NCBI GenBank assembly: GCA_012719225.1
Contig: JAAYAT010000161.1
Coordinates: 1-36,754, forward strand
Origin: Verrucomicrobiaceae bacterium
GTDB lineage: Bacteria > Verrucomicrobiota > Verrucomicrobiia > Verrucomicrobiales > DEV007
Direction: 5' to 3'
DNA length: 36,754 nt
Under the pieces are notes generated by a model, which searched no databases, had not been told where the DNA came from, and worked only from the letters and a program-made list of their open reading frames with translations. The first letter of the stretch is position 1. Each line of letters opens with the position of its first letter. Positions 17,194 through 25,127 of this stretch are shown here, in pieces. The position numbers and the translations under genes were made by a program.

Positions 17194-17982
17194 TTATTTC
17201 GGTTTCCTCGTCGGAGAAGGTTTGTCGACACCCTGTGAACCGGGTCGATCGATCTTGGTGGCGTCGGCGGGAATGCTCGCGTCGGTGAAAGGTTTTACCT
17301 CGGCGTCGAGGATGACTTTGAGTTCGACCGAGCGGATCTCGACGGTGTTGGCGTTGCCGCTGTGGAGTTGGAAGGCGAGGAGTCCCTCCAGAGCGCGGCC
17401 TTTTTCCTCGTAGTCGGTGAGCTGGGAAGTCATCCTGCCGTTGACGAGATGGACGAGGTGATTGCCCCGGGCGATGACGGTGTAGTCGTTCCACTCCGCC
17501 ACATCCACCGCGACGGGTTCGTGGGTGGACGCGAGCCATCGCTGTCCTTCGCGATCCACGATGACACTTTGCCCGTTGAGCCCGAAGATGCCCCGTCCCT
17601 TTTCCTCGTAGGTCATCCCGGTGTGTTCTATCGCGGGATGAATGTCGCTCTGGTATCCCGTGATCGCCCAGGGCCCCACTTCGGGCAGAGGGCGGCTGCG
17701 GTACTGGATGCCGGAATTGTTGTCCCCCTTGACCCGGGCGGTGACCCGCAGTTCGAAGTCCTTCAGCACACCGCCGCGCCAGATCAGGAAATCATTGTGT
17801 GGCGGGGTCCCCGGTCCGGCGCAGGTGCCGACGATGAGACCGTCCTCCACTTTCCAGAGCGCGGGATCCCCGTCCCAATCGCCGAGGTCTTTGCCGTTAA
17901 AAAGCGGGACAAACCCCTCCTCCGCCAGTGCCATGGAGGTGGCGAGGGCGAGAAAGGCGACGAGAGAAAATCGGAAGCTCAT
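17194..17982 (-). CDS. Secreted DUF1080 (3-keto-disaccharide hydrolase) family protein
   Basis: Product of 262 aa with a clear signal peptide (MSFRFSLVAFLALATSMALA). The rest is a concanavalin-like DUF1080 domain: GFVPLFNGKDLGDWDGDPALWKVEDG, then a WRGGVLKDFELRV strand, NNSGIQYRSR, then a C-terminal GLLAFQLHSGNANTVEIRSVEL. The family is very abundant in Planctomycetes and Verrucomicrobia, where some members hydrolyse 3-keto-glycosides and many are uncharacterised. The tail is Lys/Pro-rich and may be disordered. It probably acts outside the cytoplasm on a sugar derivative. It lies upstream of the PhyH and DUF3817 genes (14-base gap) and 48 bases downstream of mobA-fdhD. Confidence 0.93.
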   Translation of the reverse strand: MSFRFSLVAFLALATSMALAEEGFVPLFNGKDLGDWDGDPALWKVEDGLIVGTCAGPGTPPHNDFLIWRGGVLKDFELRVTARVKGDNNSGIQYRSRPLPEVGPWAITGYQSDIHPAIEHTGMTYEEKGRGIFGLNGQSVIVDREGQRWLASTHEPVAVDVAEWNDYTVIARGNHLVHLVNGRMTSQLTDYEEKGRALEGLLAFQLHSGNANTVEIRSVELKVILDAEVKPFTDASIPADATKIDRPGSQGVDKPSPTRKPK

Positions 17983-18030: not shown

Positions 18031-19428
18031 TCAGCGGGATGACGCGGGGGCGTCGCCGGCATACAGGTTGAAACCTTTTTCCCGGAGAAATCCGACGAGA
18101 ACCTGACCGCTCTCGCGGGCCAACTTCACGGCGAGAGCGCTCGGCGCGGAAATCCCCGCGACCACCGGAATACGGGCCGCGAGAGCCTTTTGCATGAGTT
18201 CGAAAGAGATGCGCCCACTTACTAACAAGATCACTTCGTGCAGGGACAGGCCGTTTCGCAGGGCGTGACCGATGACCTTGTCGAGGGCGTTGTGGCGTCC
18301 GACATCCTCGCGCAGCAGGAGCATATTCCCCTCCTCGTCGAAGAGGGCCGAGGCGTGGAGTCCGCCGGTGCGGGCGAAGGTCTCCTGGGCCTCGCGCAAT
18401 TTCGCGGGAAGCGCGAGGAGCCATCCGGCGGCGGGCACCGGTGCGCCCGACACCGGAGGAAAATGCTGGAAAACCGAGGCGATGGTGGCCTTCCCACAGA
18501 CTCCGCAACTGCTCGACGTGAAGACGTGGCGGGTCAGGTGGGCGAGGTCGGGAGTGGTGGTCAGCCGCACGTCGAGGGTGTTGCCGACCCCCTCGGGATC
18601 GACTTCGGAACAGCGGACGATCTCGACGATTTCCTCCGCGCCGGCGATGAGGTTTTCCGTGAAAAGGAATCCGGTGGCGAGTTCTTCGTCGTGGCCCGGC
18701 GTACGCATCGTCACCGCGACGCTGGTGCCGTTGACCCGGATTTCGAGCGGTTCCTCGGATGCGACCCGGTCGGTTTCCTCGCGGAATCCGCTCCCGCTTC
18801 GGAAGCGATGCAAGACGATGGCCTCGTCGCACTGTCCCTGCTCCAGAGTGAGGAGGTCGTCGGGCGAATTGAGGTTGGCGAAACAAGAGAGGGTTCGGTC
18901 CGTCAGCAAACAGGGTTCGATGTGCCCGAGCGCCTCCGCCTCGTCGAGGAGATCCTGCAAGCGCCGCCGCCCGGCGGCGAGGGAAGATTCGATCAGGGCG
19001 AGCATCGCCTCCCGCGGATAGAGCGCCGCGAGCGGTTCCCAACCACGTTCCGAGCGCCCCGCGACACCTTTTCCCTGGCGCAGCAGCGATTCGAGAAAGG
19101 TGGTCTCCATCTGCGGCAGATCGACGGCGAGGACCAGGACGAAAGGCGCGTCGCTCCGTCGCAGCACCGCCCGCAATCCCCCGAGCGGACCGAGATCGGG
19201 CTCGTCATCGACGACGCGCTCGACCCCTGCGAGCACTTCGGGAAAGGCCTGTTCGGCGTGGCACGAGAGCCAGAGACGGTCGGGCTGGAGCGCGGCGAGT
19301 TTGCGCAGTTGGGTGACGTAGAGAGGCCGCCCCCGCCAGTTCAGGAAAGCCTTGTCCGATCCGAAGCGGGTCGAGCGCCCACCCGCGAGGAGGACGGCGT
19401 CGAAAGAAATCGGAAAAGGCGGCGGCAT
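18031..19428 (-). CDS. mobA-fdhD: MobA-FdhD fusion: molybdenum cofactor guanylyltransferase / formate dehydrogenase sulfurtransferase
   Basis: Product of 465 aa with two joined proteins. Residues 5-195 are MobA-like: LLAGGRSTRFGSDKA (14-27) binds GTP and cofactor, then DLGPLGGL, AVDLP (Asp103) and NLNSPDDL (186-193). MobA links GMP to molybdopterin. From about residue 205 it is FdhD-like, with TPGHDEELATGFLFTE, SSCGVCG (Cys298, Cys301), LREDVGRHNALDK and an SGRISFELMQKA block. FdhD moves sulfur from IscS to the molybdenum centre of formate dehydrogenase. No stop or frame break separates them. A GTG directly before the ATG is an alternative start. The sulfatase gene ends seven bases upstream. 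No formate dehydrogenase or other moa/moe gene lies in the window. Confidence 0.93.
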   Translation of the reverse strand: MPPPFPISFDAVLLAGGRSTRFGSDKAFLNWRGRPLYVTQLRKLAALQPDRLWLSCHAEQAFPEVLAGVERVVDDEPDLGPLGGLRAVLRRSDAPFVLVLAVDLPQMETTFLESLLRQGKGVAGRSERGWEPLAALYPREAMLALIESSLAAGRRRLQDLLDEAEALGHIEPCLLTDRTLSCFANLNSPDDLLTLEQGQCDEAIVLHRFRSGSGFREETDRVASEEPLEIRVNGTSVAVTMRTPGHDEELATGFLFTENLIAGAEEIVEIVRCSEVDPEGVGNTLDVRLTTTPDLAHLTRHVFTSSSCGVCGKATIASVFQHFPPVSGAPVPAAGWLLALPAKLREAQETFARTGGLHASALFDEEGNMLLLREDVGRHNALDKVIGHALRNGLSLHEVILLVSGRISFELMQKALAARIPVVAGISAPSALAVKLARESGQVLVGFLREKGFNLYAGDAPASSR

Positions 19429-19435
19429 CACGGGT

Positions 19436-21406
19436 TCAGGGCACGCGGTTGTCCGTCCCGAGGAGATCGTTGATCGCCTTGTTCGCCGTCCTGACGATGT
19501 ATTTGTTCGGTTGATCGCGGAGGGCGCCTTTCATCGCGGCGAGGGAGGGACGGGCCGCCTCGTCGAGTTCGTCGAGCACGATGATCGCCTCGAGCCGTGC
19601 CCATTCGTTGTTGCCGGAGAGGTGTTCCTCGAGGGCGGCGAGGCCTTTCGCGGTCAGCCCCATGCGGCAGAGCGCACGCGCCGAAGCGATGGAAACCGCG
19701 GGCGCGTCATCCTCCAGCGCGTCGCTCAGCGCGGCCATGACCCCGCCCGCGTCTTTGCCTTCGGCGGCGAAATTTCCCAATCCGGTCGCTCCCCAGTAGC
19801 GCACGGCGGCATCGTCGTGGTCCAAGGCCTCGAGAAGTTCGGGGATTTTTTTGGGACCTTCCGAGGCCCGTGTCGCCGCCTCGGTGAGGGAAAGAAGGAG
19901 ATCGCTCCGGTCGCCGTCCCCGTGCAGGATCGCGAAGGCCGAGCCGGCCGCTTTTTCCCGCCGCAAAATTTCGGATTCGGGCATCAGGCCGAGATCGGCG
20001 ATCTGCAACTGCCAGTCCCGCAGGGCAGCTCGCAATTCGTCGAGCGTTTCCCGGTGGGCGGGATCGGCGGCGAGATTGCGGATCTCGTGCGGGTCGTTCT
20101 CGAGGTCGTAGAGTTCTTCGACCGGCTTACGCGCGGCGGAGAAAAGGGCCATCGTTGCGCTGAGGGCGCCCGCTTTTTCCGCCCGGCGGATTTCCCGCAT
20201 CGTGGCCCCTTGTTCGGGGGTGTTCATGTACTGGTAGTAGGGCTTGAGCGGGTCGAAGTTCCGGATGTAGCGGTAGCGGGGATTTCGCACCGAGCGGATG
20301 ATGTCGTAGCGCTCGTCCATGCGGTCGCGCGCGCCGTAGGCGTAGGGGCGCGAGGCGGGGTCGCCCACGAAGGAGACACCCTGCATCGTCTCCGGCACGG
20401 GGAGACCGGCGAGGTGCAGCATCGTCGGGGCGAAATCCACCGTGCTGACGAGCCGGTCATCGACCTCTCCCGGCGCGTGGCGGGAAAAAGACCGCAGCGA
20501 TTCCGGAAAACGCACGATCAGGGGGATGTGCGTGCCCGAGTCGTAGAGCCAGCGTTTCGCCCGCGGCAGTCCGATTCCGTGATCGGACCAGAACATCACG
20601 AGAGTGTTTTCCCATTCGCCCGCCTCCTTCAGTTCGCCAATGAGTTCACCGGCGCGGACGTCCATCGCGGTGATGAGTTCGTAGTTGCGTTTCCAATCCT
20701 CGCGCACTGCGGGAGTATCGGGATAGTAGGGCGGCAGATTGGCGAAAGCGGCGGGATCCTGACGCTGTTCGGGGCTGAGGTTTCGGGTGACCTGCTCGTA
20801 TTTTTCCCGGCTCGCGATCCCGCTCTCATGGCAACCGGTGAAGTTGAAAACGGCGAAGAACGGCTGGCCGGGCGCGCGGTTTTTCCAGTGTGCCTTCGGC
20901 GAACTTTCGTCCCAGATCTCCCGTGGCGACGGTTCGCGGAACTGGTAGTCCGTCTTGGCGTTGTTCGTGCAGTAGTAGCCCGCCTCGCGAAGATACAGGG
21001 GAAAGGGCTTCAGCCAATCAGGCAAGGTCGCGTCGCAGCGCATGTGGTGGGTCCCGATGGAATTCTGGTACATCCCCGTGATGATCCCGGAACGACACGG
21101 CGCACAAACCCCGGCGGTGGCGAAGGCCTTGGTGTAGCGCACTCCTTCCGCAGCGAGAGCATCGAGATGCGGGGTGATCGCATGGGGATCGCCGTAGCAT
21201 CCGAGATGGGGACTGATGTCCTCGGCGGAGATCCAGAGGATGTTGGGACGTTCCCCCGCCATTCCCGCCAGAGGCAGCACGAAGCCGAGGAAGGAAAGCA
21301 GGAAAAGCGGCCCTCTCCGCCCTCTCCAGAAACCGCACGGAGGGAGGAGCCGGACGGCGGATCGGTTGGGGGAAATCTGTTCGGATGGGATGGAGCGGGT
21401 TGTCAT
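19436..21406 (-). CDS. Exported sulfatase with C-terminal HEAT-like region
   Basis: Product of 656 aa. After a basic stretch a signal sequence (LFLLSFLGFVLPLAGMA, about 34-50) precedes the type I sulfatase fold: RPNILWISAEDISP gives the metal Asp/Glu (Glu62, Asp63), and VCAPCRSGIITG holds the C-x-P-x-R site (Cys101 to Arg105), whose Cys would become formylglycine. SDHGIGLPRAKRWLYDSGTHIPLIVR supplies the C-terminal metal and sulfate ligands. After about residue 525 the chain turns into helical repeats (ALDHDDAAVRYWGATGLGNF, then DAPAVSIASARALCRMG) resembling HEAT repeats. The substrate is probably a sulfated glycan or ester. No sulfatase-maturing enzyme is in the window. I chose the ATG at 21404-21406; upstream in-frame sequence lies beyond a more natural leader. 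Confidence 0.93.
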   Translation of the reverse strand: MTTRSIPSEQISPNRSAVRLLPPCGFWRGRRGPLFLLSFLGFVLPLAGMAGERPNILWISAEDISPHLGCYGDPHAITPHLDALAAEGVRYTKAFATAGVCAPCRSGIITGMYQNSIGTHHMRCDATLPDWLKPFPLYLREAGYYCTNNAKTDYQFREPSPREIWDESSPKAHWKNRAPGQPFFAVFNFTGCHESGIASREKYEQVTRNLSPEQRQDPAAFANLPPYYPDTPAVREDWKRNYELITAMDVRAGELIGELKEAGEWENTLVMFWSDHGIGLPRAKRWLYDSGTHIPLIVRFPESLRSFSRHAPGEVDDRLVSTVDFAPTMLHLAGLPVPETMQGVSFVGDPASRPYAYGARDRMDERYDIIRSVRNPRYRYIRNFDPLKPYYQYMNTPEQGATMREIRRAEKAGALSATMALFSAARKPVEELYDLENDPHEIRNLAADPAHRETLDELRAALRDWQLQIADLGLMPESEILRREKAAGSAFAILHGDGDRSDLLLSLTEAATRASEGPKKIPELLEALDHDDAAVRYWGATGLGNFAAEGKDAGGVMAALSDALEDDAPAVSIASARALCRMGLTAKGLAALEEHLSGNNEWARLEAIIVLDELDEAARPSLAAMKGALRDQPNKYIVRTANKAINDLLGTDNRVP

Positions 21407-21534
21407 GAGGAGCTTTCTGCCCGAGGTCGTTTCACATTTCGCCCTTCCGGCGCGGGTGGGCGCAGCGTTTGTCGCAGCCCCACTGTTCCACAAGCGGAGC
21501 TGTCTTGTCACGATCAATCCGTGGAGTCGGGTGG

Positions 21535-21557
21535 AGAAAAAACCTTCCGCTCACGGA
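21535..21557 (-). terminator. Weak hairpin with T-run at the aldolase gene end
   Basis: Read on the minus strand, TCCG-TGAG-CGGA spans the aldolase stop codon and is followed by AGG and six T (complement of 21537-21542). The stem is only four pairs, so it may attenuate rather than end transcription toward the sulfatase gene. Confidence 0.25.
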
Positions 21558-22534
21558 TTCGCCTGAAAAGCGCGTCCGATTTTCACCGCTTCGCGCACAC
21601 CGCCGGACGGACCGCTGTCGCCGCCGACGGCGAGAAAACGGAACCCCTGTCCGAGACGTTTCTCGACATCGCGAGCCCCACAGAGCGTGCCGAGGGGCAC
21701 GCCGGCTTGCTTGGCGGCCGCGACCACTTTTTCGATCGCCTCCTCCACCGCCGGATCACCCAGCGGAACCCCCAGAGAGAAGGCCAGGTCCGAGGGTCCG
21801 AGGAAAAGCCCGCCGACGCCGGGAGTGCTGGCGATGGCGAGGCAATTCTCCACCGAGTCCTTCGTTTCTATCATCAGCCAGAGGGCGATCTCCCCTTTGG
21901 GATCGAGCGGCCAGAGGTCGGCCCGCTCTCCGTATTCCTTGCCCGAAAGCCCCCAGTAGCGCGCCGCCCAGCCGTAGCCGATCCCGCGTTTGCCGATCGG
22001 TTCGAAGTCGGGCGCGTCCGTCAGTTGCGGGTAGCGGCAGGCCTGGACCATGGCGCGGGCATCCTCGGCGGTATCGACGTGGGGCACGACGATGCCGAGC
22101 GGACCGAGGTCTAGGACTTGTTTGATGATCCACTGCATCTGTTCCCGTCCGGCTGCGGGCACGCGCACGAAGGGGGCGACCCCCGGCTGAAGATTGCCTT
22201 TGCGCACGATCTCCGCCTTGTTGATCATCCCGAGAAGATAGCCTTCGAGCCGAGTCGGGTCGTAGGGGGAATGCTCGAGGTCGATGATGACAAAATCCAG
22301 TCCGCTCCCCGCCATGACCGCTCCGGTGCGGGTCGAAACATTGGAGGAGAATACTCCAAAAGCGGGTTTGCCCGCCTCCATCAGTTCGACGTAGCGGTTC
22401 AGGCGGGGTGTTTTCGCGGGTTCCTTCGCCGGTGTTTCCTGCGACAAAAGCGTCGGAGCGGGGATCGCGAAAAGAGCGAAAAGAGCGAAAAGGAAGAAAG
22501 GGAGGGCGGTGAGAGAGGGAGCGGAACGCATCAT
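21551..22534 (-). CDS. HpcH/HpaI family aldolase with N-terminal signal peptide
   Basis: Product of 327 aa. The core (residues 57-325) matches class II HpcH/HpaI aldolases, which cleave or form hydroxy-keto acids with a divalent metal. LEHSPYD holds the catalytic His (His88), VRVP the substrate Arg (Arg124), and IET (Glu223) and GPSDLAFSLG (Asp249) the metal ligands; all appear intact. Unusually for this fold, the chain opens with a hydrophobic leader (LPFFLFALFALFAIPAPTLLS, about 11-31) and a Lys/Pro linker, so it should be exported or membrane-attached. The ATG overlaps the upstream stop as ATGA. A second ATG follows directly. The paired genes upstream also encode exported proteins. Substrate unknown. 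Confidence 0.9.
   Translation of the reverse strand: MMRSAPSLTALPFFLFALFALFAIPAPTLLSQETPAKEPAKTPRLNRYVELMEAGKPAFGVFSSNVSTRTGAVMAGSGLDFVIIDLEHSPYDPTRLEGYLLGMINKAEIVRKGNLQPGVAPFVRVPAAGREQMQWIIKQVLDLGPLGIVVPHVDTAEDARAMVQACRYPQLTDAPDFEPIGKRGIGYGWAARYWGLSGKEYGERADLWPLDPKGEIALWLMIETKDSVENCLAIASTPGVGGLFLGPSDLAFSLGVPLGDPAVEEAIEKVVAAAKQAGVPLGTLCGARDVEKRLGQGFRFLAVGGDSGPSGGVREAVKIGRAFQANP
22467..22493. repeat. Three 9-base tandem repeats inside the aldolase signal peptide
   Basis: The unit GCGAAAAGA is repeated three times (last copy ends in G). On the coding minus strand this writes repeated Leu-Phe-Ala in the hydrophobic leader of the aldolase. Copy-number change would keep the frame and alter leader length by three residues. 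Confidence 0.85.
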
Positions 22535-24483
22535 TCGGGTTGAGTGGGGGTGGGGGAAAGGGCTTGGGAATCACCGCCGAAGGCGGAACGCAGGTAGGCA
22601 AGCACGTCGGTGATTTGATTGGGTTTGAGGACACCGCCGAAGGGTGGCATGGGGCTGCCTTCGCTGCCGTGGGTGATGAACCGGATCAATTCTTCGTCCG
22701 ATTTCGACAAGGGCGCCTCGGGGCCGCGCAGGGTGAAATCCGCCGCGACGAGAGCGGGGGTGCCGGGGAGGGCGGTGGCACCGGGGAGAGCGCCGCCGCT
22801 GCCGTCGGGCTGGTGGCAGGTGACGCAAAAGGTGCGGTAGATGCTGAGGCCGTTTTCGGGATTCGGCCCCTGGTCTGTTTTCTTCTCGGCGATCAGGAGC
22901 GGCTCTGACATCGGACCGGTGAAGAGGCTGCCGTCGAGGAGACGGGTGAGGGTGTAAAAAGCCAGCGGATTTTCCACCCGATCCCCCGCGGCGGAGCGCA
23001 AGGGATCGACCTCCAGTTCGTAGATGTAGCCCGGGTCCAGGTCCTCCAGCGCCAGCTCGACGGCACGACCGTCCCCGGCCACCCGCAACTCGCGGATCGC
23101 GACCTCGGCCTCATCCGTGCGCGGGGAGCCGCTCGGCAGATAGAGATAGCGGAAACGCCCCAGCCGATACGACGAGACATCCCCCAGCTTTTCGGCATCC
23201 ATCGCGGTGGTGAAAGTGAGCCGGAAACCGTCCGGGATCAGTTCTATCGTGGCGATCTCCACCGGAGTGCGTTGGGACCAAACGATGCGCTGGAGTCCGT
23301 CGCCGCTGGCCCAGCCGCGGGTGGTTTGGGCGACGTAGAGGCTGCCGTCTGGCGCGAAGGCCATGCGCATGTTGCCGGGGCGCAAGGGGGTTCCCGAGCG
23401 CGGCGGTACATCGCGGAAGTATTTCAGTCCGTCCCGTCCGGCCGGAATGGTGAGATTGTCCGCCCCGCTGTTCGCTTGGATCGCCTCCAGCCCGACGGCG
23501 TCGCGAATGAAAGGGAAACACGCCCCCTGGTATTCGCCGGCGACTTTTTCCAGATAGACCCGGCTGATCAGCTTGGTGAAATCACCGACGAAGATCTGTC
23601 CGGTGAACGGCCCGAATTTTCCCCCGGTGGTATCCCAGACCGGTTCGCCGGGGCTGCCGCCCATCGTGCCGTGGGGCAGCGCCACCGCTTCCGGGGTGCG
23701 CCGTTTCGCCAACTCGGGCAGATCGAGGGGACCATCGTAGTCCTTGGCCCACTTCAGCGAAGCCGGATGACCGTAAAAACGCCCCGGCTGGACGTGGACG
23801 AGGGTGCTGGTGGCGACGTAATCGCCCTGCTGGTCGGTCGCGAAAATCTCGCCGTCGGGACTGACGCCCACCCCCGCCGCCGCGCGGAAGCCGCTGGCGA
23901 TGGGCGTGAGCCGACCGTCGCGGTCCACCTTGAGGACCCAGCCCTCGTAGCGACCGGGCGAAGGTTTCCGTTCCTCGTGCACTTTTTCCATGTTCAGGGG
24001 AACGCGGGGATAGAGGGTGTTGAGCGGCCCCGCCAGATCGGGCAGGCCGGTGGAGAGGATGAAGTCGCCCTCCTTGTTCAGATGCAGGCCGAAGGTGAAT
24101 TCATGCCAGTTGTCGGTCACGCTCCAGTCGTCGTTGATCGTTTCGTAGCGATCCGCCGCGCCGTCGCCGTCGGTGTCGCGCAGGCGGGTCAGTTCCGGCC
24201 GCTGGGTCACGAAAATCTCCGTTGCCGAGGCGGCGAAGACCCCGAGCGGCTCGTGCAGGCCGAAGGCGAAGCGCCGCCACGGGCCGTTTTTCGGATCGGC
24301 GGTCAACCAGACCTCGCCGTGCCGGTTGACGATGACGAGTTGGCCGTCGGGCGTGAAGGTCACCCCCGAAACCTCCGGCACCATCGCCGTCGGCAGGGTG
24401 ATCTCCTCGATTTCGTAGGTATTGGCCCGGAGGCTCGCCGCCGCCGCGAGAGGAAGCAAAAAGAAAGCAAGGCGTCGTTTCAT
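22531..24483 (-). CDS. Exported beta-propeller dehydrogenase-like protein with C-terminal cytochrome c domain
   Basis: Product of 650 aa with a signal peptide (MKRRLAFFLLPLAAAASLRA). Residues 25-420 form a propeller like those of glucose/sorbosone-type dehydrogenases common in PVC bacteria (VSGVTFTPDGQLVIVNRHGEVW, LTRLRDTDGDGAADRYETI, ASGFRAAAGVGVSPDGEIFATDQQG, GNMRMAFAPDGSLYVAQT). A beta region (430-540) follows, then a cytochrome c domain with CVTCH (Cys553, Cys556, His557) and a likely axial Met612 in GSPMPPF. It probably oxidises a sugar or alcohol in the periplasm and passes electrons through haem. Overlapping ATGA junctions join it to both neighbours, so the three genes should be translated together. 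Quinone cofactor and substrate are not readable. Confidence 0.88.
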   Translation of the reverse strand: MKRRLAFFLLPLAAAASLRANTYEIEEITLPTAMVPEVSGVTFTPDGQLVIVNRHGEVWLTADPKNGPWRRFAFGLHEPLGVFAASATEIFVTQRPELTRLRDTDGDGAADRYETINDDWSVTDNWHEFTFGLHLNKEGDFILSTGLPDLAGPLNTLYPRVPLNMEKVHEERKPSPGRYEGWVLKVDRDGRLTPIASGFRAAAGVGVSPDGEIFATDQQGDYVATSTLVHVQPGRFYGHPASLKWAKDYDGPLDLPELAKRRTPEAVALPHGTMGGSPGEPVWDTTGGKFGPFTGQIFVGDFTKLISRVYLEKVAGEYQGACFPFIRDAVGLEAIQANSGADNLTIPAGRDGLKYFRDVPPRSGTPLRPGNMRMAFAPDGSLYVAQTTRGWASGDGLQRIVWSQRTPVEIATIELIPDGFRLTFTTAMDAEKLGDVSSYRLGRFRYLYLPSGSPRTDEAEVAIRELRVAGDGRAVELALEDLDPGYIYELEVDPLRSAAGDRVENPLAFYTLTRLLDGSLFTGPMSEPLLIAEKKTDQGPNPENGLSIYRTFCVTCHQPDGSGGALPGATALPGTPALVAADFTLRGPEAPLSKSDEELIRFITHGSEGSPMPPFGGVLKPNQITDVLAYLRSAFGGDSQALSPTPTQPE

Positions 24484-25127
24484 TTCTTCGTCTTGGCTTG
24501 CATCGTCATGGCAAAGGGAGCGGGGGAGTCCGTGTCCGTCCCCGTTTCGAATTTCCACAGGCCGGGCGACACCTTTGTTCCCCCGGTGAAAACGACCTCC
24601 GCGTCGCTCTGCTCTTCCGCGAGGAAATAAAAGGTGTGCCCTCCCTCCGCGACCATCCAGGCGCGCTCCACTCCGTCACCGTCGGAAGTGATGCGGAGGG
24701 CCTCGCTGACCGCGACGCCGTCGAGAGTGTAGTCGAAAATCACCGCGCCGTCGGCGTAGCGATAGCCCTTGAATCTCCGTTCGGGAACCGTTTCGGGGTC
24801 CTCGATCCGCAGGGGCTGTAAGATGGATTCCTCATAAAAGACCGTGCCCGCGATGGTCGCGGGTTCGTTGATCTTGGCCCGGAGAGTCGGGGCCAGATCG
24901 AGAGTGCCCTGCCACGACTGGTTCACGCCGCCGCGCAGGGGGTCGTAGCAGAGCGCCAGATACGGTGCCAGCACGACGCCGAAGGCGGACGGACCCGCCC
25001 CGGGCATGAAGGTGCGGTAGACCTGCGGCGGAGTCGGCGGATCCTTGTCTTCGCTGAGACCCGGACCCGCAACGAGCGCCACGAGGAGGGCGGCGGGGAG
25101 CAAAAGGGAGCGACCGGTGCGGTTCAT
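24480..25127 (-). CDS. Exported protein with a domain seen in PVC cytochrome-type proteins
   Basis: Product of 215 aa with a signal peptide (SLLLPAALLVALVAGPGLS, about 7-25). The mature part begins PQVYRTFMPGAGPSAFGVVL and continues ALCYDPLRGGVNQSWQGTLD and GTVFYEES. This pattern resembles a domain I know from large secreted cytochrome or ThuA-like multidomain proteins of Planctomycetes and Verrucomicrobia (YRTF, then a 'W-x-G' strand, then a P-V-F-Y segment), where it usually sits next to haem-binding domains. Here it is a separate gene whose TGA overlaps the next ATG by four bases, so it may be a split-off subunit of the propeller-cytochrome protein. The ATG at 25125-25127 follows GAGGG very closely. 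No catalytic motif is recognised. Confidence 0.7.
   Translation of the reverse strand: MNRTGRSLLLPAALLVALVAGPGLSEDKDPPTPPQVYRTFMPGAGPSAFGVVLAPYLALCYDPLRGGVNQSWQGTLDLAPTLRAKINEPATIAGTVFYEESILQPLRIEDPETVPERRFKGYRYADGAVIFDYTLDGVAVSEALRITSDGDGVERAWMVAEGGHTFYFLAEEQSDAEVVFTGGTKVSPGLWKFETGTDTDSPAPFAMTMQAKTKK

Follow-up and report, generated by a model that had tools for sequence, protein, structure and literature searches.

A three-gene operon joining a propeller-cytochrome c module to a predicted exported class II aldolase in a Verrucomicrobiaceae bacterium

The window analysed here, a 36,754-nucleotide stretch of DNA from a Verrucomicrobiaceae bacterium, contains three genes (A, B and C) which lie on the minus strand and are joined by two ATGA stop/start overlaps. 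Gene A (24480-25127, 215 aa) encodes a DUF6797-like protein with a leader at about residues 1-25 and without an electron carrier of its own. Gene B (22531-24483, 650 aa) encodes a PVC-type beta-propeller with a C-terminal cytochrome c, a leader at about residues 1-20 and the haem c motif CVTCH at residues 553-557 (22813-22827, minus strand), and gene C (21551-22534, 327 aa) is predicted to encode a class II HpcH/HpaI aldolase with a TIM barrel and a leader at about residues 1-31. Genes A and B overlap at 24480-24483 and genes B and C at 22531-22534, both on the minus strand, as had been described in a first-pass annotation of this DNA; the B-C overlap is also kept in the public metagenome-assembled genome (MAG) contig L036 (2883-2886). 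The frames of all three genes are open throughout. Compared with the orthologues in genome G066, the differences at codon positions 1/2/3 were 33/24/61% for A, 19/14/60% for B and 15/10/61% for C, and this much lower divergence at positions 1 and 2 than at position 3 marks A, B and C as real genes. The observation of an A-B-C operon is thus confirmed.

On the same strand, downstream of A-B-C, the window encodes a sulfatase with C-terminal HEAT repeats (19436-21517) and a 3-keto-disaccharide hydrolase of the DUF1080 type (17194-17982). A single 466-aa frame at 18031-19431 (minus strand) combines a MobA-like NTP transferase domain (residues 12-163) with an FdhD domain (residues 225-459), so that one protein unites accessory functions for the molybdenum cofactor and for formate dehydrogenase.

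Gene A is, from profile scores, probably a divergent DUF6797-type protein. It scored 16.1 bits against DUF6797, for which the Pfam gathering cut-off is 24.9, and A-like paralogues in the same position scored 25.0 (L107, at the cut-off) and 21.8 (L110). The earlier description of A as a cytochrome-associated domain holds through its paralogues only. For gene B, the match to cytochrome c (PF13442, 42.1 bits against a cut-off of 27) together with the CVTCH motif identifies a c-type cytochrome, and the match to the DUF7133 propeller was marginally above the cut-off (28.0 against 27 bits), which agrees with its previous reading as a propeller-cytochrome c protein. Against TIGR02604 (PVC-type heme-binding CxxCH protein), B scored 37.2 bits, below the cut-off of 122.2, and no GSDH (PF07995) match was found for B itself in the Pfam scan. 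Residues R200, Q219 and G220 of B are invariant in an alignment of 20 propellers. A search of the B profile against PDB sequences gave no confident solved-structure relative, with 3das (2e-4) standing alone amid generic propellers; most matches were designed Pizza propellers and were discarded as generic repeat similarity. In a joint alignment of A and B, the C-terminal half of A was aligned falsely to B, so only the N-terminal part of A was used. An AlphaFold model of an A-B fusion (L034) was set aside (pLDDT 47, pTM 0.36). In G058, B is split into two overlapping frames (L044, 3644-4900 and 3006-3689), a frameshift caused by genuine decay of the gene or by faulty assembly.

Gene C matched HpcH_HpaI (PF03328) at 104.2 bits against a gathering cut-off of 25, and its structure model is a TIM barrel (pLDDT 79) that aligned to 4mf4 with an E-value of 2e-19 and a TMt of 0.80 in a structure comparison with the PDB. 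Among solved structures, those nearest to C are pyruvate aldolases of class II (4mf4, 2vws, 1dxe (GarL) and 4b5w (HpaI)). Residues D85, E87, H88, R124, E223 and D249 of C correspond to D47, E49, H50, R75, E153 and D179 of GarL, and all of these mapped catalytic and metal residues are kept and are invariant across 14 orthologues. The third gene had been called an HpcH/HpaI aldolase, and the profile score and the intact active site bear this out; C is predicted, from sequence and model, to be a metal-dependent class II HpcH/HpaI aldolase. With the other members of this class (HpaI, GarL, YfaU/RhmA and SwHKA) it shares the TIM barrel, the catalytic His and Arg, the Glu/Asp metal ligands and the DxEH and GPSDL motifs. 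In HpaI, the groups that matter in cleaving the C-C bond and stabilising the enolate are Arg70 and His45 together with a metal-bound water (PMC8560999), and SwHKA, of the same fold family as C, is known to convert hydroxypyruvate (PMC10099721). C differs from the class in having a leader and in forming a clade separate from the tested cytosolic homologues (99/98 support), and from GarL in insertions at about residues 103-133 and 170-215. It scored far below the NCBIfam equivalog cut-offs of HpaI (111/369 bits), GarL (97/407 bits) and RhmA (89/441 bits), so its substrate is not nameable from sequence. A PADLOC scan of C returned no match.

C also matched macrophomate synthase (1izc) and SbnG citrate synthase (4tv5) of the same fold family, and the aldol reaction of class II enzymes is reversible (PMC8560999), which would be compatible with C working in vivo as a condensing enzyme that joins a reactive aldehyde made by A-B to pyruvate, or in another enolate reaction like those of these two enzymes. 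We consider this quite improbable, as the closest solved relatives of C are ordinary aldolases (4mf4, 2vws and 1dxe) and C keeps every catalytic residue of them.

A, B and C and their orthologues all have a leader with a hydrophobic core ahead of the mature domain, as indicated by hydropathy, with leader sequences that vary among orthologues and mature parts that are conserved. Export of all three proteins by signal-peptide-like leaders is thus supported by hydropathy and conservation, in line with the earlier proposal of three exported proteins with the aldolase among them. If the leader of C were instead an uncleaved cytosolic N-terminus, C would be an ordinary cytosolic aldolase; the leader call rests on hydropathy and conservation, and the leader-like part of the C structure model has low confidence. 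This is very improbable, given that all 14 orthologues and most of the wider relatives in other phyla have differing leaders with a hydrophobic core, and that the order's other HpcH/HpaI homologues, 24 in number, showed no leader of this kind.

Co-occurrence of the three genes was examined in 142 genomes of the order. Orthologues of C with 72-79% identity were found in six other genomes, and below these there was a gap, followed by other HpcH/HpaI proteins at no more than about 44%. Close orthologues of A (E <1e-44), B (63-77% identity) and C occupied an identical set of 7 of the 142 genomes, the window genome included; when phylogeny is ignored, the chance agreement of two such sets of seven is 1/C(142,7) = 5e-12. 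The B subtype without C was not seen in any of the 142 genomes. Conservation of gene order had been set beforehand as a test, and the order A-B-C was kept across families of this bacterial order, in all six intact loci (the window, G066, G017, G005, G002 and G058) and also in L036, which lies outside the 142-genome sample. In G136 the contig ends after A-B and C is on a separate contig, A and B form a single fused frame of 907 residues in G005 (L034), and in G066 an additional propeller-HEAT-cytochrome c gene is present between B and C. Close C orthologues were found in only 2 of 387 genomes sampled phylum-wide, indicating a rare cassette with a patchy distribution.

Members of the wider B family are common, with a match at E <1e-25 in 111 of the 142 genomes. 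Among loci fetched by similarity to A or B, which held 40 distinct A-like genes, a B-like propeller adjoined the A-like gene on the same strand in 39, most frequently with a 4-base overlap. An electron carrier was present on the A-like gene in 38 of these 40 loci: an N-terminal cytochrome c in 17, a C-terminal cytochrome c in 7, several haem motifs in 5 and a type-1 copper motif in 9. Pfam confirmed cytochrome c where scanned and plastocyanin/azurin in one gene of the copper type, the other copper calls being motif-only. No CxxCH was found in the B partners of the 38 carrier-bearing A-like genes; the C-linked subtype alone is reversed, with a bare A and the haem motif on B. This comparison of sequences makes the A-B pair of the window one subtype of a two-gene module that is widespread. 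Such DUF6797-propeller pairs with exchangeable carriers (L053-L111) occur in this order as a general module present in multiple copies, and the window genome also encodes single-chain DUF6797-propeller proteins, one of them with a C-terminal cytochrome c.

The known proteins closest to A-B are the PVC-type propeller-cytochrome proteins (TIGR02604/DUF7133/DUF6797) and the PQQ aldose sugar dehydrogenases (GSDH, PF07995); a propeller with the conserved motif GFR...G...TD(N/Q)QGD, an associated cytochrome c and a DUF6797 partner are the common features. A-B differs from these proteins in being split into two genes, in having the cytochrome on B rather than on A, in an insertion of about 34 residues in the propeller and in the aldolase gene that comes after it. 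An oxidoreductase would be expected to have a single carrier in each A-B pair, with carriers of different types replacing one another, so there is good support for A-B as a redox module, in which catalysis by the propeller is inferred. A paralogous B (L085) matched Glucose/Sorbosone dehydrogenase (GSDH) at 33.9 against 25 bits and ends in CBM6, which points to carbohydrate. NHL-like propellers are often binding modules, and B might likewise be a non-catalytic propeller that binds a ligand or serves as a cytochrome scaffold for electron wiring, with no oxidation by A-B; its TIGR02604 score of 37 lies far under the cut-off of 122, and its PQQ ligands were unconfirmed by the PDB comparison. We regard a non-catalytic B as unlikely, since each pair has a single interchangeable carrier domain like an oxidoreductase and the paralogous propeller scores above the GSDH cut-off.

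Outside the cassette, relatives of C with 58-78% identity were found in MAGs of Kiritimatiellota, Acidobacteriota and Planctomycetota, and remoter ones (36-46% identity) in an Acidobacteriota sample. Nearly all C relatives in other phyla have leaders. In the tree, 24 C relatives formed one clade (99/98) apart from the tested cytosolic homologues, and the Kiritimatiellota sequences and one Acidobacteriota sequence grouped with the C of the window (96/99), suggesting that C was transferred between phyla or that some MAG contigs were mis-binned. This tree and the leaders place C in an aldolase clade whose members are nearly all predicted to be exported and often occur without A-B. A leaderless C relative in L146 (4980-6891) has an Amidohydro_2 protein directly upstream and a PQQ-type dehydrogenase downstream; the Amidohydro_2 protein and the C relative are possibly an aromatic-acid hydratase-aldolase pair. 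In the Acidobacteriota, PQQ dehydrogenases adjoin exported C relatives (L135, L138 and L142), and in a genome of the planctomycete sample an exported C relative adjoins a DUF1080-DUF7133-cytochrome c protein. Each such Acidobacteriota genome has 19-59 PQQ dehydrogenase matches, so this adjacency was rejected as strong proof and gives only mild support. Matches to PF01011 (PQQ dehydrogenase propeller) numbered 38 in G529, 59 in G651 and 50 in G629, each a single Acidobacteriota genome.

Relatives of B were absent from 4 of the 7 other C-bearing genomes examined (Kiritimatiellota and Bryobacterales), which rules out a strict dependence of C on A-B. That the B subtype never occurs without C while C often occurs without B fits a C that clears the product of A-B and in addition takes part in other routes elsewhere. 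A possible reading, which we give well under an even chance, is that C and A-B are exported and co-regulated and work in parallel: A-B would oxidise one compound, and C would act independently in the periplasm on a keto acid that already arises, or is set free, extracellularly. The C-bearing Kiritimatiellota and Bryobacterales genomes without a B relative speak for such a parallel arrangement, as do the DUF1080, acetamidase, Gfo/Idh/MocA or TonB-like genes that adjoin C relatives without A-B. Against it stand the exact co-occurrence of A, B and C in the 142 genomes, where the B subtype is never without C, and the overlapping starts of the three genes.

The reading we propose, in which A-B-C is an operon for a short extracytoplasmic oxidation-then-cleavage step, is put at about an even chance. 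It builds on the gene overlap, the leaders, the catalytic residues, the haem motif, the linkage, the co-occurrence and the module architecture, all of which are shown at the level of sequence. A and B, the DUF6797 partner and the GSDH-like beta-propeller, would form a periplasmic oxidoreductase module that oxidises a carbohydrate-derived alcohol or aldehyde (a sugar, an aldonate or similar), and the cytochrome c fused to B would accept the electrons and pass them to the respiratory chain. C would cross the membrane and, as a metal-dependent class II 2-keto-acid aldolase, split the 4-hydroxy-2-keto acid formed by the oxidation, giving an aldehyde and an acid of the pyruvate or hydroxypyruvate type; both would then be taken up. 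Propeller catalysis, the identity of the substrate and the succession of oxidation and cleavage are inferred here. A periplasmic oxidation followed by cleavage of a sugar acid or aromatic acid had been suggested from the sequence before and is partly supported; co-export, linkage, the redox character of A-B (carriers in 38 of 40 loci) and the intact active site of C agree with it, while the occurrence of C without A-B in 4 of 7 genomes means that C does not depend on the module. A sugar or sugar-acid substrate is indirectly favoured over an aromatic one. Candidate chemistry would be the C2 oxidation of an aldonate to a 2-keto acid, with a direct cut by a hydroxypyruvate-tolerant class II aldolase. 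More specifically, and only tentatively since we think it rather unlikely, the operon might encode a self-contained periplasmic oxidative retro-aldol route, in which C2 oxidation of an aldonate by A-B is followed by dehydratase-free cleavage by C to hydroxypyruvate or pyruvate and a short aldehyde.

Membrane gluconate 2-dehydrogenase and PQQ glucose dehydrogenase oxidise sugars in the periplasm and pass the electrons to the respiratory chain, and the extracytoplasmic oxidation proposed for A-B resembles these systems. C-C cleavage by pyruvate-type aldolases is cytoplasmic as a rule, and we know of no periplasmic sugar oxidation system with an extracytoplasmic pyruvate-type aldolase. The literature search gave no paper that names DUF6797 or the PVC-type heme-binding proteins, and nothing relevant on exported HpaI aldolases, periplasmic aldolase or GSDH in Verrucomicrobia. 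The folds are known, the location of the aldolase is unusual, and its pairing with a redox module is apparently undescribed.

A-B-C is found as a set in scattered relatives, which suggests an extracytoplasmic route in which some sugar acids are first oxidised and then cleaved. The predicted exported aldolases form a clade that spans four phyla, and in one lineage they are linked to a cytochrome-bearing oxidoreductase module. The wider A-B module, in which cytochrome, multihaem and copper carriers replace one another, is common in this Verrucomicrobiota order and offers many testable activities. If the retro-aldol route were true, it would be, to our knowledge, the first extracytoplasmic pathway with a pyruvate-type aldolase. 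If the oxidation-then-cleavage reading is true, part of sugar-acid catabolism would take place outside the cytoplasm in these hard-to-grow soil and aquatic bacteria.
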